Shown here one piece after another: positions 1,478-29,997 of a DNA stretch of 32,918 nt. Position 1 is the stretch's first letter. The number at the start of each line of letters is the position of its first letter. The stretch is taken from positions 1 to 32,918 of the forward strand of contig CAMCSH010000008.1 in assembly GCA_945877655.1 (NCBI GenBank), in the 5' to 3' direction. The position numbers and the translations under genes are program-made. This DNA is from Lentisphaera araneosa HTCC2155 (lineage in GTDB: Bacteria > Verrucomicrobiota > Lentisphaeria > Lentisphaerales > Lentisphaeraceae). The notes beneath the pieces are model-generated. The model made no database searches and was not told the DNA's origin. It worked only from the letters and a program-made list of their open reading frames with translations.

Positions 1478-3182
1478 CTACATCGCCAAGAGACTGGCCG
1501 AACTCGGCGTCACCCATGTATATGAGCTGGTAGGCGGCATGACCACGATCATGTTGGACGCCATTTCCCGGCGCGGCGATACCCAGATCATCTGCATGCA
1601 TCATGAACAGGCCGCAGGCTTCGCCGCGGAAGGACACTCCCGCATTACCGGCCTCCCTGCCGTGGCGATGGCCACCAGCGGCCCCGGCGCCACCAACCTG
1701 CTCACCGCGGTCGGCAGTTGCTTCTTTGATTCCGTGCCAGCGCTGTTCATCACCGGCCAGGTCAACAGGCATGAACTCAAAGGCGATCGAGGGGTTCGGC
1801 AGCTCGGATTCCAGGAGACTGACATTGTGACCATGGCCGCGCCAGTCACCAAAGGTGCTTGGCTGATCAATGACCCGGCGGAGTTGCCTGAAATCCTCGA
1901 ACGAGCGTTTCTCCTAGCCGTCAGCGGGCGCCCTGGTCCGGTGCTGCTCGACATCCCCATGGATGTCCAGCGCAGTCCCGTTCCCGATTTCATGCCGCCA
2001 GTCCCGCAGCCGGCCAAATCAGGAGAATGCGGGCACTTCCTCGCCCAGCTTCAATTGGCTATAGCCGCCGCGCAGCGCCCCCTTCTCCTTGTCGGCGGCG
2101 GTGCTGCGCAAACTGGCTGCCGCCAAGCCTGCCGCGCCTTCGCCGAGAAGATGGGTATCCCGGTGGTCTGCTCGCTGATGGCGGTCGATCTCTTGCCCGA
2201 CGGCCATCCCCTGCGCGTCGGCTTGATCGGCAGCTATGGCAACCGCTGGGCCAACACCGCGCTGGCGCGCGCCGACCTCGTCATCGTCTTGGGTAGCAGG
2301 CTCGACATCCGCCAGACCGGCGCTGATGTCGCCTCCTTTGTCGCCGGCAAGCAGATCTTTCAGATCGATGTCGACGCTGCCGAGCTCAACAACCGCATCA
2401 AGAGCGCGGTGTCTCTGGCCATGGATTTGAACGGCTTCTGTGCTGCCGCCGCCGGCGTGCAAACTACCAAGTCCATTCCGCGTGACTGGCAGGAGTCCAT
2501 CGTCACCGACCGCCAGCGCTGGCCGGATGACCGAGAGCTTGACATGGGCGAATCGATCAATCCCAATAGTCTCATCAAGTCCCTCTCTGTCGACCCCGCC
2601 GCCCGTAGCGTGGCCGCCTATGTCAGCGATGTTGGACAACACCAGATGTGGGCAGCCCAGTCGCTCCGCTTTGCCGAAGGCCAGCGTTTTCTCAACTCCG
2701 GCGGCATGGGAGCCATGGGCTTCGGCCTTCCCGCTGCCATCGGCGCATGCTTCGCTGCGGAGCGTCGTCCGGTGCTGCTGATCAGCGGCGACGGCAGCCT
2801 CCAGATCAATATCCAGGAAATGCAGACACTACACCGCAATCGCATGCCGGTGAAAATCGTCGTTATCAACAACTGCTGCCTAGGCATGGTTCGCCAGTTT
2901 CAGGAGTCCTACTTCAACTCCAGATTCCAGTCGACAGTCGTTGGCTACAGTGCCCCTTCATTCTCCAAGGTCGCTGCAGCCTATGAAATCGACAGCGCCG
3001 CTATCAGCCGCCCGGAAGAGCTGATCCCCGCGCTCGCGGCACTGTGGCGGGATCCTTCCGCGCCTTACCTGCTTGAAGTCTTCGTTCCCTCGGCAGCTAA
3101 TGCCTACCCGAAACTTGCCTTCGGTAAACCGATGTCGGAGATGGAGCCCTTCTCCCGTCCGCTCGATATGGAAGGCACCTGA
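1464..3182 (+). CDS. ThDP-dependent acetolactate synthase-like enzyme, YerE-type candidate
   Basis: This 572-residue protein has the full acetohydroxyacid synthase architecture: an N-terminal Pyr domain with the activating glutamate E48 in HHEQAAGFAAEG, a central domain, and a C-terminal PP domain with the ThDP motif GDGS (442-445) running to NN (469-470). Relatives decarboxylate pyruvate and transfer the resulting two-carbon unit. No regulatory small subunit and no ilvC/ilvD lie nearby, so branched-chain amino acid synthesis is unlikely. In Yersinia yersiniose synthesis, YerE adds an acetyl group to C4 of a CDP-3,6-dideoxy-4-ketosugar. Here the gene directly follows RfbH and an SDR, so the same role is inferred. 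Start ATG 1464 is preceded by GGAGCC; a TTG at 1431 would add 11 poorly conserved residues. Confidence 0.85.
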   Translation: MDAADYIAKRLAELGVTHVYELVGGMTTIMLDAISRRGDTQIICMHHEQAAGFAAEGHSRITGLPAVAMATSGPGATNLLTAVGSCFFDSVPALFITGQVNRHELKGDRGVRQLGFQETDIVTMAAPVTKGAWLINDPAELPEILERAFLLAVSGRPGPVLLDIPMDVQRSPVPDFMPPVPQPAKSGECGHFLAQLQLAIAAAQRPLLLVGGGAAQTGCRQACRAFAEKMGIPVVCSLMAVDLLPDGHPLRVGLIGSYGNRWANTALARADLVIVLGSRLDIRQTGADVASFVAGKQIFQIDVDAAELNNRIKSAVSLAMDLNGFCAAAAGVQTTKSIPRDWQESIVTDRQRWPDDRELDMGESINPNSLIKSLSVDPAARSVAAYVSDVGQHQMWAAQSLRFAEGQRFLNSGGMGAMGFGLPAAIGACFAAERRPVLLISGDGSLQINIQEMQTLHRNRMPVKIVVINNCCLGMVRQFQESYFNSRFQSTVVGYSAPSFSKVAAAYEIDSAAISRPEELIPALAALWRDPSAPYLLEVFVPSAANAYPKLAFGKPMSEMEPFSRPLDMEGT

Positions 3183-3184
3183 CG

Positions 3185-4132
3185 ATGGCCAGCGATCTGA
3201 CCATCTACATCCTCTGCCGGGATCGCATCCCATACTTGCGCGAGATGTTGTCCCGCCTGCAAGTCTTGGCGCATCCCTTGGTCATATCTGATAATTCCGT
3301 CGATGAGGCTGCCGCCGCGACGATTCACAGCTTGGCTGAAGCTGGCGGCTTTGGGTACCTCCGTCAGCCTAACCTGCCGGTGCTGCTTCACATCAAGACT
3401 CTGATGGCGGAGTGCCCCAGCGACTACTTTTGCCTTCTCCACGATGATGACGTGGTAGACCCGGCTTATTTTGATGCCGCCCTCGCTATCCTGCGGGGGG
3501 ATCTTGGCTGTGTCGCAGTCGCAAGCTACCCTCAATTTATTGATGGCGATTCCGCCCCGCGGCCCAGCCCGGTTTGCAGCACCTGGGGGCTGGACTCACC
3601 AGAGGAGCTTTACCGCCGCTACCTCAACCATGAGCCCATCGCCGTCTTCCCTTCTTATGTCTATCGGACGTCCAGCGTGAAACCCGCTTTGTCGGCCTGG
3701 GACGATCTCTGCGGATTCGGCAAGCACAGCGATCTGCTTTTCCTGACGCTGCTGATCAAGCAGGGGCGATTCCATTGGATCGGCACCGAGAACCGTTACT
3801 TTCGCTATCGACAGCATGCCGGGCAGGACTCGGCCAAGCTCTGCGCTGGAGAGAGGATCCGCCTCTCCGATTACGCCCGCCATCGCTGGCCGGGCCTGCG
3901 CAGACAGACCGCGTTTTTCCGTGCCGTCAATATTTGTGCCTGGCTGGAGCAAAGACAATCCTTGCTTCGGTTTTCTCCACGGGTTTGCTCGCGGGCGCTC
4001 GGTCACCGTCATCTCGCCCGCCTTAACACCCTCTTGATCTGCCACCGGATCAAAGCTAAAATTGTAGCGCTATTTAGACGCTTTAAATACTCACAGCAAC
4101 CCCATATTCAGGGCACTAAAAATTTTATATGA
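3185..4132 (+). CDS. Family 2 glycosyltransferase
   Basis: This 315-residue protein begins with a GT-A nucleotide-binding strand (LTIYILCRDR) and has the acidic triad D87-D89 in CLLHDDDVVDP, where GT2 enzymes bind divalent metal and the nucleotide sugar. No transmembrane segment is evident, so it is probably a cytoplasmic or peripheral transferase building the repeat unit on a lipid carrier. It starts 2 bp after the ThDP gene stop and ends in an ATGA overlap with the GT10 gene. The last ~25 codons become AT-rich and lysine/isoleucine-rich, marking the left edge of the AT-rich patch that covers the 5' half of the next gene. Donor and acceptor cannot be assigned. Confidence 0.85.
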   Translation: MASDLTIYILCRDRIPYLREMLSRLQVLAHPLVISDNSVDEAAAATIHSLAEAGGFGYLRQPNLPVLLHIKTLMAECPSDYFCLLHDDDVVDPAYFDAALAILRGDLGCVAVASYPQFIDGDSAPRPSPVCSTWGLDSPEELYRRYLNHEPIAVFPSYVYRTSSVKPALSAWDDLCGFGKHSDLLFLTLLIKQGRFHWIGTENRYFRYRQHAGQDSAKLCAGERIRLSDYARHRWPGLRRQTAFFRAVNICAWLEQRQSLLRFSPRVCSRALGHRHLARLNTLLICHRIKAKIVALFRRFKYSQQPHIQGTKNFI

Positions 4133-5157
4133 AACTGGCCACACTCTATGTCGATCCACCCTACCTCCAAGATCGAATTTTTGACCCTGGAAAATCAATA
4201 ATAAATCGCGATGACTGCCTTTGTTTTTATCGGTATTTAAAAGACTTTTTTAAGTTTAAAGGATATTTTTTATCTACACAGGATATCCATCCCGTAGATC
4301 AATCAGAATTTGTGATATATAACAGTAATTATTATACGGAATCCAATATAATTAATACACATAAATCATTCATGATCATGTGGGAGAGTGAATTAATTGC
4401 TCCACAAATCTGGAACTTAAAAAATCATTATAAATACAATAAGATATTCACTTGGTGCGATACATTAGTGGACCAAAAAAAATATTTCAAGTATAACTAT
4501 TATTACTACTCAAAAAATGGATTTTCTGGAAAATTTTCCGAACATAAAAAATTAGCAGTTATGATTTCTGGTAATAAGACAAATTCGCATCGCCATGAAC
4601 TCTATTCTGAAAGACTGAAAGTGATCAATTGGTTTGAGCGCCATCAGCCTGCAGATTTTGATCTTTTCGGGCCTGATTGGAACAAGAGTGTGTTCCATGG
4701 GGTTTGGCGTCCCTTGAACCGTATAAAACCTTTGCGCAATGTACAAATTTTTAATCACCCCTGCTACCGAGGCGAGGCCGAGGATAAACTGGCTACATTG
4801 GCCAATTATAAATTCTCAATTTGCTTTGAAAATGCCAAGGATATCCCTGGATACATTACGGAGAAAATATGGGATTCTTTATCCGTTGGCTGCATTCCAG
4901 TCTATTGCGGTGCTCCGAATATATTTGATTGCATTCCGGAAGGCTGCATTATTGATTATCGCAAGTATGCAAGCTTGCCCCAGCTTTATCAATACCTCAA
5001 GGCCATGCACCCGGCGGAGCTGCGATCTCGATTCGATCTCATCGAATCGGCTTTTATGCAGTCGATAGCCGGTAATTTCAGCGCCCGTAATGTGGCCGAA
5101 AATATCGGCCGTGAAATACTCAGAACTAACTTGAACGAGAGAGGAGAGCTCACATGA
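4129..5157 (+). CDS. GT10 family (alpha-1,3/4-fucosyltransferase-like) glycosyltransferase
   Basis: The 342-residue product carries the CAZy GT10 signature at residues 229-248: [10 protein letters not shown], then [10 protein letters not shown], followed by an [14 protein letters not shown] stretch. This is the GDP-fucose-binding region of Helicobacter-type and eukaryotic alpha-1,3-fucosyltransferases. The gene sits directly before gmd, an fcl/colC-like gene and colD, so the donor should be GDP-L-fucose or its 3-deoxy analogue GDP-L-colitose. The 5' half (about 4129-4620) is strikingly AT-rich, with many Lys, Asn, Tyr and Ile codons, unlike its neighbours; the 3' half approaches local composition. 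This suggests relatively recent transfer, perhaps as a mosaic. Start and stop both use 4-bp ATGA overlaps with the flanking genes. Confidence 0.88.
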
Positions 5158-15509: not shown

Positions 15510-16946
15510 TCAGTTTAAGAACCCAAGAAGAGCCCGAGAAGACCTCGCCATCAGTTCCCAATCCCCCCGGCTCTCGACATTAAGCCGCAGCAGAGGTTCG
15601 GTGTTCGATCCACGCAAATTGAAGCGCCAGGCGCCCATGTCCATCGACAGGCCATCGGTGCGATCGATGGCGAGTGCGGCGGGAGCAAATTCGGCCTCGA
15701 TGCGGGCCAATACTGCGGAGATGTCAGTCACCTTGCGGTTGATCTCACCGGAACAAGGGAAGAGCCGTTGCCGTCCGGCGACCAGGGAGGAAAGAGACTG
15801 GCCGCGTTTGGACATCAAAGCCACGACCAGCAGCCAGGGGATCATGCCGGAGTCGCAAGAATAGAAGTCGCGGAAGTAGTGGTGGGCGCTCATCTCGCCG
15901 CCGTACACCGCGTCTTCCTCGCGCATCACTTGCTTGATGAAGGCGTGGCCAGTGCGGCTCTGGATCGCCTTGCCACCACTGGCTTGGACGATGTCGATGG
16001 TGTTCCAGGTGAGCCTTGGGTCGTGAATGATCTTGGCGCCGGGATGATCGAGGAGGAAGGCCTCGGCGAGAAGGCCGACGAGGTAGTAGCCTTCGATGAA
16101 TTCGCCCCGCTCGTCGAAGAAGAAGCAGCGGTCGAAATCGCCGTCCCAGGCAAGGCCGAGGTCGCAGCCGTGTTCGCGCACGGCGGCGGCGGTGAAGTCG
16201 CGGCATTCGGGTAGCAAAGGATTGGGGATTCCCGTCGGGAAAGTGCCATCCGGTTCGCAGCGGACTTGGATGAATTCGAGCGGCGATCCGGCTTCTTTGA
16301 GCTGGGTGATGATGGCGTTCAGCGCCGGCCCGGCGACGCCGTTGCCGCCGTCGCAAAGGATGCGCAGCGGCTTGAGCTCGGCCGGTTTGATGAAGCTCAG
16401 GCATTTGGTCGCGTAGGCTTGTCGGATTGGGACACAACTGGGACACGGTTGGGACACGGTTGGGACACAATTGGGGGATGATGAAACGCCATTGAGTTCT
16501 GCGGTTTCTCCCAGTTGTGTCCCAATTGTGTCCCAATTGTGTCCCTGTTGTGTCCCTGTTCCCATCACCAGCTGCTCAACCTCTCCCAGGCCATTGTCGC
16601 GGCTGATCGGAGTCGAACCCGGGCCGACGAATTTCATGCCGTTGTAGTCGATCGGATTGTGGCTGGCGGTGACTTCGACCCCGAGGTCGACGCCAAGATG
16701 AGATGTCGCAAAATAGATCTCCTCAGTGCCGCAGAGGCCGATGTCGGTGACCGTGCAGCCGCCTTTGCGAAGGCCGCGAATCAGTGCGGCTTTTAGTCCG
16801 GGGGAGCTGAGGCGTGCGTCGTGCCCGACCACCGCAGTGGCGGGCTTGCGGACGGCGCAAAGAGCTAGGCCGATGCGCTCGGCGCGTTCTTCCGTGAGCT
16901 CGGTGCCGAGCTTGCCGCGGATGTCGTAGGCTTTGAAGGGATTCAT
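15510..16946 (-). CDS. manB: Phosphomannomutase/phosphoglucomutase with in-frame repeat insertion
   Basis: ManB interconverts mannose-6-phosphate and mannose-1-phosphate for GDP-mannose synthesis. It starts MNPFKAYDIRGKLG. The phosphoserine S95 lies in TASHNPIDYNG, the metal loop in DGDFDRCFFFDERG, the sugar-binding loop in GGEMSAHHYFRDF, and the phosphate-binding RGSNTEPLLRLNVES at the end. At 478 residues it is longer than usual: about residues 129-174 are a Gln/Pro/Cys/Thr-rich insert encoded by 11-bp repeats (16428-16563). It falls between the first and second domains without breaking the frame. All catalytic motifs are intact, so activity may survive. No good ribosome site precedes ATG 16946. 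manC lies upstream on the same strand. Confidence 0.93.
   Translation of the reverse strand: MNPFKAYDIRGKLGTELTEERAERIGLALCAVRKPATAVVGHDARLSSPGLKAALIRGLRKGGCTVTDIGLCGTEEIYFATSHLGVDLGVEVTASHNPIDYNGMKFVGPGSTPISRDNGLGEVEQLVMGTGTQQGHNWDTIGTQLGETAELNGVSSSPNCVPTVSQPCPSCVPIRQAYATKCLSFIKPAELKPLRILCDGGNGVAGPALNAIITQLKEAGSPLEFIQVRCEPDGTFPTGIPNPLLPECRDFTAAAVREHGCDLGLAWDGDFDRCFFFDERGEFIEGYYLVGLLAEAFLLDHPGAKIIHDPRLTWNTIDIVQASGGKAIQSRTGHAFIKQVMREEDAVYGGEMSAHHYFRDFYSCDSGMIPWLLVVALMSKRGQSLSSLVAGRQRLFPCSGEINRKVTDISAVLARIEAEFAPAALAIDRTDGLSMDMGAWRFNLRGSNTEPLLRLNVESRGDWELMARSSRALLGFLN
16428..16563. repeat. 11-bp-period inverted-repeat element inside manB
   Basis: The left arm has four units starting GGGACAC at 16429, 16440, 16451 and 16462, exactly 11 bp apart. 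The right arm has four GTGTCCC units at 16517, 16528, 16539 and 16550, also 11 bp apart. The arms are imperfect reverse complements (unit consensus GGGACACRRYT) around a ~40-bp unique centre, so the element could fold into a long hairpin. It is read through in frame by manB on the minus strand. Confidence 0.9.
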
Positions 16947-16953
16947 GGTCAGG

Positions 16954-17075
16954 AGTTTAAGGTTATAAGTTTAAAGTTTAAAGTCGAAGGCAGGGGGACG
17001 CCGTCGATCCAGTAGAGGAACAGCACTCGGGATGCATATAACTTTAAACCTTAAACTGTTAAACTTTAAACTGTT
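16954..17075. repeat. TTTAAA-rich inverted repeat between manB and manC
   Basis: The left arm (about 16954-16984) and right arm (about 17041-17075) are AT-rich, built from GTTTAARGTTTAA-like units, and are imperfect reverse complements over about 30 bp with one indel. They enclose a ~56-bp unique GC-rich centre. The right arm runs into the manC stop codon. The layout (repeat arms plus unique loop) parallels the 11-bp element nearby, but the unit sequence differs. Confidence 0.75.
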
Positions 17076-18471
17076 ACTGTCGCCCATAACGATCCTCGAA
17101 ACGGACGATGTCATCTTCTCCAAGGTAGGAGCCGATCTGGGTTTCGATCAGGACCAGGGGAATCCGACCGGGATTGGCGAGGGCGTGTTTCATGCCGATC
17201 GGCAGATAGACCGATTCGTTCTCGTGGATTTGCAAGATCTCTTCGCCGCGAGTCACCTCGGCGGTACCGGAGACGACAACCCAATGTTCGGCGCGGTGGT
17301 GGTGGAGCTGCAGCGACAGCTTGGCACCGGGTTTGACGGTGAGTCGTTTGACTTGATAACGCTCTTGATGGTCGATTTGCTCATAATGGCCCCAAGGACG
17401 ATGGACCTTGGTGTGATTGAGGTGCTCCTGGCGCCCTTCCTTGTCGAGGCGGGCGACAATCTCCTTGACCTTGCCTGCCTGGTCCATCGTCGAGACCAGC
17501 AAGGCGTCGCGGCTGTCGACGATGAGCAGATTCTTCAGGCCGATGGCGGCGACCAGCCGCTCGGAGCCCTGCACCAAGCAGTGATCGCAATCGACCAACA
17601 TGGCGTCGCCGATGACGCTATTGCCCCGAGGATCTTTGGTGCGGATTTCCTGCAAGGCCGACCAAGCGCCGACGTCGCTCCAGCCGGCGTCGAGAGGAAC
17701 CATCACGGCGCTCGCGGTCTTTTCCATCACGGCGTAGTCGATCGATTGGGCCGGACAAGCAAGGAAGGCCTCGCGATTCGGGCGAATGAAATCGAGATCC
17801 GTAGTTTTTGCGTTCATCGCATTTCGGCATGCGGCAAGGATGTCGGGACGATGGATGCCGAGCTCTTCGAGGAGGCGATCGGCGCGGAAGAGGAACATGC
17901 CGGAATTCCAGAAATGACCGCCGGCAGCGAGCAGTTTTTCGGCTGTGGCGAGATCAGGCTTCTCAAGGAAACGGGTGATCGGCTGTATCGCTTCGCTGCC
18001 CTCGGCCTGGATGTACCCATAGCCGGTGTCAGGGCGGGTCGGGACGATGCCGAAGGTGACCAGTTTGCCGGCCTGGGCCGCAGGAATCGCTGAGCTGACG
18101 GCTTGGCGGAAGGCGTCGGGATTCCGGATGTCGTGATCGGCGGCGAGAACAAGAAGAAGTTCATCGGCCTTGCCACGGCTTTCCGCCTCAATCGCGGCGA
18201 GAGTGAGTGCCGGGGCCGTGTTGCGTCCAGCCGGCTCAAGAATCAGTGATCCTTTTGAGTCGAGTTCCAGCAGCTGCTGAGCGGCAATGAAACGATGGTC
18301 CTCGTTGCAGACGACGAGCGGAGCGGAAAGCTCTAGTCCCTTCAGTCGAAGCAAGGTCTCCTGCAGCATCGAATGTGTGCCGGTGAGAGGGAGAAACTGT
18401 TTCGGCATGAGCTGCCGTGACAAGGGCCAGAGCCGGGTGCCGGCGCCTCCGGACATGAGAACGGGGATCAT
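17074..18471 (-). CDS. manC: Mannose-1-phosphate guanylyltransferase / mannose-6-phosphate isomerase
   Basis: This 465-residue bifunctional type II enzyme has an N-terminal nucleotidyltransferase domain with GGAGTRLWPLSRQLMPKQFL from residue 8 and a FLEKPDLATAEKLL segment. Its C-terminal cupin carries RPWGHYEQID and LHHHRAEHWVVVSGTAEV, the isomerase half. It makes GDP-mannose, the precursor for gmd. I chose ATG 18471, preceded at 7 nt by AAGGAAG; the frame is open for another 34 codons upstream, but these lack family similarity and cover the likely promoter. The gene is divergent from the GT4 at 18617. Its stop codon lies within the right arm of a TTTAAA-rich inverted repeat. Confidence 0.95.
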   Translation of the reverse strand: MIPVLMSGGAGTRLWPLSRQLMPKQFLPLTGTHSMLQETLLRLKGLELSAPLVVCNEDHRFIAAQQLLELDSKGSLILEPAGRNTAPALTLAAIEAESRGKADELLLVLAADHDIRNPDAFRQAVSSAIPAAQAGKLVTFGIVPTRPDTGYGYIQAEGSEAIQPITRFLEKPDLATAEKLLAAGGHFWNSGMFLFRADRLLEELGIHRPDILAACRNAMNAKTTDLDFIRPNREAFLACPAQSIDYAVMEKTASAVMVPLDAGWSDVGAWSALQEIRTKDPRGNSVIGDAMLVDCDHCLVQGSERLVAAIGLKNLLIVDSRDALLVSTMDQAGKVKEIVARLDKEGRQEHLNHTKVHRPWGHYEQIDHQERYQVKRLTVKPGAKLSLQLHHHRAEHWVVVSGTAEVTRGEEILQIHENESVYLPIGMKHALANPGRIPLVLIETQIGSYLGEDDIVRFEDRYGRQ

Positions 18472-29835: not shown

Positions 29836-29948
29836 GACTGATTTCTCCGATTGATGATGAGGGCTGCAGAAGGAGACGTCGTGGCGCGACAAGTTCAAGA
29901 CTGATTCACTTTCGCGAGAGTCTTAATGTGTGTCAACACTAACTAACT

Positions 29949-29997
29949 GGGAAACGACTGGGACACATTTGGGAAACGACTGGGAAACGACTGGGGG
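29949..29997. repeat. 11-bp direct repeats between hom and proC
   Basis: Four tandem 11-bp units start at 29949, 29960, 29971 and 29982. Three are GGGAAACGACT and one is GGGACACATTT; a degenerate GGGGGAAC follows. Period and GGGAMAC core match the element inside manB, but here there is only one arm and it lies in the 273-bp divergent hom/proC spacer. The rest of that spacer holds the hom and proC leader sequences. Confidence 0.85.

Follow-up and report, generated by a model that had tools for sequence, protein, structure and literature searches.

A facing pair of 11-bp tandem arrays in the domain linker of a manB-type gene, a probable member of a dispersed, strand-polar repeat family of Lentisphaera araneosa

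Rickettsia palindromic elements (RPEs) are stem-loop sequences of 105–146 bp that occur both between genes and in frame within conserved protein genes, whose products apparently tolerate them (PMC2229807, PMC3767692); they have been found in 19 reading frames, with an active guanylate kinase among the examples (PMC2229807). The TAACTGA direct repeats of marine Beggiatoaceae have a unit of 7 bp, are situated just before start codons, and contain stops in all frames of the forward copies (PMC4679880). REPs are palindromes of 20–40 bp that occur with RAYT transposases (PMC3733652, PMC3116915), and the tandem repeats of Borg elements arise independently at each site, the coding ones giving disordered protein segments (PMC9879509).

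The window analyzed here is a stretch of 32,918 nucleotides, contig C8 of the 3.9-Mb draft genome of L. araneosa HTCC2155 (370 contigs). It contains a manB-type phosphohexomutase gene (15510–16946, minus strand; 478 aa), identified by the Pfam domains PGM_PMM I–IV, by alignment with orthologues, and by an AlphaFold core with a PDB match. Codons 129–175 of this gene are occupied by an element of about 139 nt (16424–16562), delineated by pattern search and hairpin folding, which consists of two facing 11-bp tandem arrays separated by a spacer (16479–16506). The first arm (16507–16562, minus strand, i.e., manB sense) has the left edge GGAAC, four [A/T]GGGACACRRY units, of which the [A/T]GGGACAC parts span 16517–16557, and the right edge TGGGAGA. 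The second arm (16424–16478, plus strand) has four TGGGACACRRY units, with TGGGACAC repeated four times at an exact spacing of 11 bp (16428–16468), and the right edge TGGGGGA. A preliminary description of the locus had reported opposing GGGACAC arrays with an exact 11-bp period and had called them hairpin-forming; both observations are confirmed, as the element folds far better than dinucleotide shuffles either as DNA (z = -9.6) or as mRNA-sense RNA (-86.7 kcal/mol, z = -8.8). Between the stop codon of a manC-type gene and the start of manB, the gap is filled by a facing pair from another family, with a 7-bp unit (AGTTTAA / TTAAACT; 16954–17076). The second array of the 11-bp family in the window is intergenic and has a single orientation (29948–29997, plus strand).

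The manB frame stays open across the whole element, and the Pfam profile contains all four domains, with domain I (residues 4–118) and domain II (177–281) flanking the insert. The motifs TASHNP, DGDFDR, GEMSAHH, and RxSNTEP are invariant in an alignment with 25 orthologues, so the catalytic motifs are indeed preserved, as described earlier; the absence of stops from the insert is likewise confirmed. None of these orthologues has the insert or a conserved segment of the same length: their linkers between domains I and II comprise 21–26 residues, as compared to 50 in manB. Since the element amounts to about 46 codons but the net gain is only about 28 residues, approximately 18 native linker residues are gone by simple arithmetic and, judging from the alignment, the insert is a replacement of the native linker and not a pure addition. 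Hence, the earlier view of an in-frame insert stands as far as coding is concerned, but the linker has been exchanged rather than merely lengthened. In the PDB match, 46 query residues are unaligned at the linker versus 18 residues of the chain. The characterization of the inserted peptide as Gln/Cys/Pro-rich is loosely right, there being three cysteines among the 50 linker residues.

In the AlphaFold model, the mutase core is mostly well predicted, whereas residues 131–136 and 148–171 have pLDDT below 50; most of the inserted stretch is thus predicted to be disordered and the enzyme core to be intact. The nearest solved structure is a phosphoglucomutase from X. citri, and comparison of the model fold with 5bmn yields TM-scores of 0.84/0.89. 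Together with the flanking Pfam domains, the model agrees with the proposal that the coding insert lies at a probably tolerant site, in the linker after domain I. ManB with the insert most likely still works, as far as conserved motifs and the predicted fold can tell, and the peptide encoded by the insert is most likely without a function of its own. The gene had also been called essential-type, which is not claimable because a more distant paralogue is encoded on contig C315.

The 11-bp unit is abundant in this genome. Two-unit matches number 96 and looser matches 164, while a reversed control pattern yields none in either search; the two-unit counts exclude a chance origin of the repeat. A catalogue built from the flanks of sites listed by the pattern search contains at least 55 arrays, each with about two units or more, and at least 232 units, both numbers being lower bounds. 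Among the matches listed, the unit is TGGGACACRRY, its last three bases being mostly AAC, AGT, GAC, or AAT (232 units); the left edge is a recurrent RRY triplet, mostly within GAAC, TAAC, or GAGC, and the right edge is a recurrent TGGGGRA. A candidate for a fixed right end, AGCTCAAA, was rejected, as it follows only a minority of arrays. A G-quadruplex, considered because of the GGG spacing, was likewise rejected, since the conservation of ACAC is about equal to that of GGG and the number of units is too small in many arrays. One uncommon two-unit string, TGGGAAACCAT-TGGGACACGAC, is common to two loci, suggesting that arrays have been copied between loci.

Facing pairs of 11-mer arrays were observed at only four loci among the matches listed; all four pairs point inward and have defined outer ends. 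The basic unit is therefore a one-directional tandem array and not a palindrome. No combination of RRY units produces a stop codon in any of the six frames (0 in 3072 frame tests), which makes in-frame tolerance easy. However, approximately one-half of random 11-mers at this GC content are likewise stop-free in all frames, and hence this property permits, rather than explains, the manB case. The array in manB is the only one seen in the middle of a protein among the matches listed. Three arrays of the opposite orientation enter N-terminal leaders of prepilin-like, GspK-like, and ApbE-like proteins, and one array extends the C-terminus of an ABC ATPase (all named by sequence reading). At locus L155, two 11-mer arrays are situated in frame in the leaders of the prepilin-like and GspK-like proteins (1982–2426 and 3160–4329).

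Outside this genome the repeat is rare. No 11-mer arrays were found in five genomes of the same family; 8-mer arrays were not found in the family either, and 754 kb of sequence from relatives contains no facing pairs. Among 198 genomes of the class and 388 of the phylum, only four others have matches, one or two at most in each. In the sequence sampled, this genome has a GC content of 0.61, as compared to 0.39–0.41 in three same-family genomes (G001, G002, and G004).

The placement of arrays relative to genes was analyzed in the array flanks and in a 397-kb genome sample, with gene calls made by a home-made hexamer gene finder. Among the matches listed, 24 of 55 arrays (~44%) start 1–9 nt past the stop of a same-strand gene, against a mean of 1.3 and a maximum of 4 in 200 trials of random intergenic placement; none of the 55 has the opposite orientation just past a stop, and about half do not directly follow a stop. 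The 397-kb sample, selected regardless of repeats, contains 20 facing pairs of short tandem arrays and one same-direction pair; block-shuffled sequence contains no facing pairs. These pairs (loci L268–L287, sampled from contigs C1–C23) are formed by several unit families, e.g., GGTTGAAA (8 bp), GTTTAAA and TTAAGAA (7 bp), and AGGGAGT(C/A) (8 bp), and mostly fill gaps between co-directional genes. In one facing 8-mer pair (L276, 5692–5810), the variant TTCAAAGG occurs in each arm at the matching position, which looks as though the two arms were copies, one made from the other. For GGTTGAAA, GTTTAAA, and TTAAGAA, the unit strand follows a stop by no more than 20 nt in 13 cases, and the complement precedes a start by no more than 20 nt in 17, with no reversed case of either kind. 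In mixed gaps, most clearly at L158, L169, L171, L178, and L189, an 11-mer array after the stop is combined with a 7- or 8-mer array before the next start, and hence complementarity of the two facing arms is not required. The idea that the 11-mer generally serves to form hairpins was rejected, as most arrays are without an opposing arm of 11-mers and, where a far arm is present, it is often of another family.

We consider it probable that the manB insert belongs to a family of 11-bp tandem arrays, with the unit TGGGACACRRY, that is specific to the lineage, dispersed, and strand-polar. Judging from the array edges and the very few shared unit strings, short arrays would have been copied between loci by replication slippage or template switching; no dedicated transposase was found. 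The arrays may persist at gene ends either because they are neutral or because of a role at the RNA level. In the case of manB, a facing pair would have landed in the gene and displaced the linker between domains I and II. Its survival may be due to the lack of stops in all frames of the array, to a length that keeps the frame, and to a linker that tolerates a disordered loop.

A possible, though less than even, alternative is that the arrays have a function in RNA, as signals at gene junctions involved in ribosome release, reinitiation, or the formation of transcript ends, the manB copy being a stray. The polarity of the 11-mer (24:0 among the matches listed) and of the 7- and 8-bp units (13:0 after stops, 17:0 before starts) speaks for such signals, as does the filling of co-directional gaps by facing pairs, mixed-family ones included. 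On the other hand, the distribution is limited to a single lineage, array length is very variable, there is no conserved gene set, and complementarity between opposing arms is not needed. A rule at the RNA or insertion level is suggested by the strict polarity, selfish or neutral growth by the single-lineage spread. We tentatively suggest that the genome might have a boundary grammar of several unrelated repeats, with the unit strand immediately after stops and the complement immediately before starts, so that many co-directional gaps would begin and end with arrays, possibly constituting a genome-wide ribosome or transcript-end device from which the manB insert is an escaped copy.

The preliminary description had favored a small mobile or amplifying palindromic element, similar to REPs or MITEs. 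Dispersal in the genome is borne out, and neither of the two refuting outcomes named in that description (a conserved segment of equal length in orthologues, or absence of the 11-mer elsewhere in the genome) was observed, but the copies are mostly tandem arrays of a single orientation and not palindromes. It is unlikely that a facing pair with GGAAC/GGAT ends is moved, in the manner of a MITE or an RPE, by a transposase acting in trans, with single arrays being its broken halves. The defined outer ends and inward polarity of all four facing loci among the matches listed would fit, as would the presence of the uncommon second unit TGGGAAACCAT in both arms of the C97 pair, and the length and in-frame tolerance recall RPEs (PMC2229807). 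Nevertheless, the facing pairs are few and have dissimilar spacers, no RAYT or other transposase gene adjoins an array, and single arrays follow stops in one direction only, which is unexpected of random halves. The sequences covered yielded neither a parent element with which the copies could share terminal inverted repeats nor a matching transposase, a target duplication, or an empty site from a close strain, so that an assignment to MITEs is not supported. Spread driven by RAYT was also considered and rejected: RAYT-type genes are present, but TGGGACAC is absent from the six RAYT flanks examined. The arrays of contig C166 lie about 5.7 kb from the RAYT gene of that contig, and about 2.6 kb separates a weak RAYT match on C4 from an array.

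Integrase arm-type direct repeats, e.g., DR2 of Tn916, have a spacing of about 11 bp. We consider it rather improbable that the arrays go back to recombinase or operator sites of genomic islands, with TGGGACAC at this spacing serving a tyrosine integrase as its arm-type site and such sites having seeded the genome. The TGGGACAC arrays of other genomes and viral contigs adjoin genes for tyrosine integrases, in many cases with a tRNA alongside (L201, L202, L222, L224, and L227; integrases identified by Pfam for L222 and L224 and by sequence reading for L201 and L202), or lie by a tRNA at a contig end (L203). By analogy, these arrays resemble arm-type sites, and a recombinase-site origin is conceivable. 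In this genome, an island integrase linked to a tRNA on contig C16 has its own facing GGTGGGAAG repeats upstream (L282, 7853–7941). However, no TGGGACAC array is situated beside any of the five integrase-type genes of this genome, and these genes were rejected as the source of the arrays; moreover, most arrays follow ordinary genes, and other, unrelated unit families are placed in the same way. An integron cassette, considered because of stop codons followed by ...AAC, was rejected, as the genome has no integron integrase above the TIGR02249 cut-off. In unrelated phage settings TGGGACAC arrays occur as well (L223 and L226), and an ORF without a Pfam match on a phage contig (L225, 1529–2293) carries an in-frame array whose peptide, VGHKWDTSGTQ, resembles that of manB.

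An assembly artefact or a decaying gene is very improbable: although repeats do occur at contig ends (C136, C155, and C166) in this draft of 370 contigs, the two halves of manB are parts of a single mutase, share a frame, and retain all motifs, the array ends are unlike one another and unlike those of other loci, and an artefact would not preserve the frame and trim the linker.

The manB locus is a clean case of repeat DNA turned into a protein segment, beside the known ones of Rickettsia and Wolbachia, and the conversion is made easy by a unit without a stop in any frame. More surprising than the insert itself is that, within one lineage, several unrelated families keep so strictly to one strand at gene ends; this offers a direct way to ask whether such repeats are passengers or junction signals. 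In the open-access literature, we found no description of the 11-mer repeat or of the mixed-family boundary pattern.

With REPs and BIMEs the arrays have in common that they are short, dispersed, intergenic, and sometimes arranged in facing pairs, but the unit is a non-palindromic 11-mer in tandem instead of an imperfect palindrome of 20–40 bp, and no RAYT gene adjoins it (TGGGACAC is absent from the six RAYT flanks examined), so that the proposed REP membership fails. The comparison with MITEs is limited to the facing arms at four loci (among the matches listed), with no parent element found. Similarly to Borg repeats, these are lineage-specific tandem repeats that yield, where coding, predicted disordered segments; unlike them, one unit sequence recurs throughout the genome. 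The arm-type repeats of integrases share the spacing of about 11 bp and, in relatives and viral contigs, the vicinity of integrase genes, whereas the arrays of this genome are not beside integrases. The TAACTGA repeats are closer: in both cases, short tandem arrays are dispersed over many loci (here at least 55 arrays and 232 units), are mostly intergenic with a fixed position and strand at gene boundaries (24 of 55 listed after stops, none reversed), and only a few enter ORFs. In contrast to TAACTGA, TGGGACACRRY is 11 bp long, lies just after stops, is open in six frames, and coexists with several other families. Like an RPE, the manB element is about 139 bp long, forms a stem-loop, and is inserted in frame in a conserved gene with its motifs kept; but RPEs are palindromes without short tandem units, while here an 11-bp unit forms mostly single-direction arrays, often after stops, and only one mid-protein case occurs among the matches listed. 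Thus, RPEs are the nearest precedent for in-frame inserts and TAACTGA repeats for boundary-placed arrays, and the present case shares features with both while fully matching neither.
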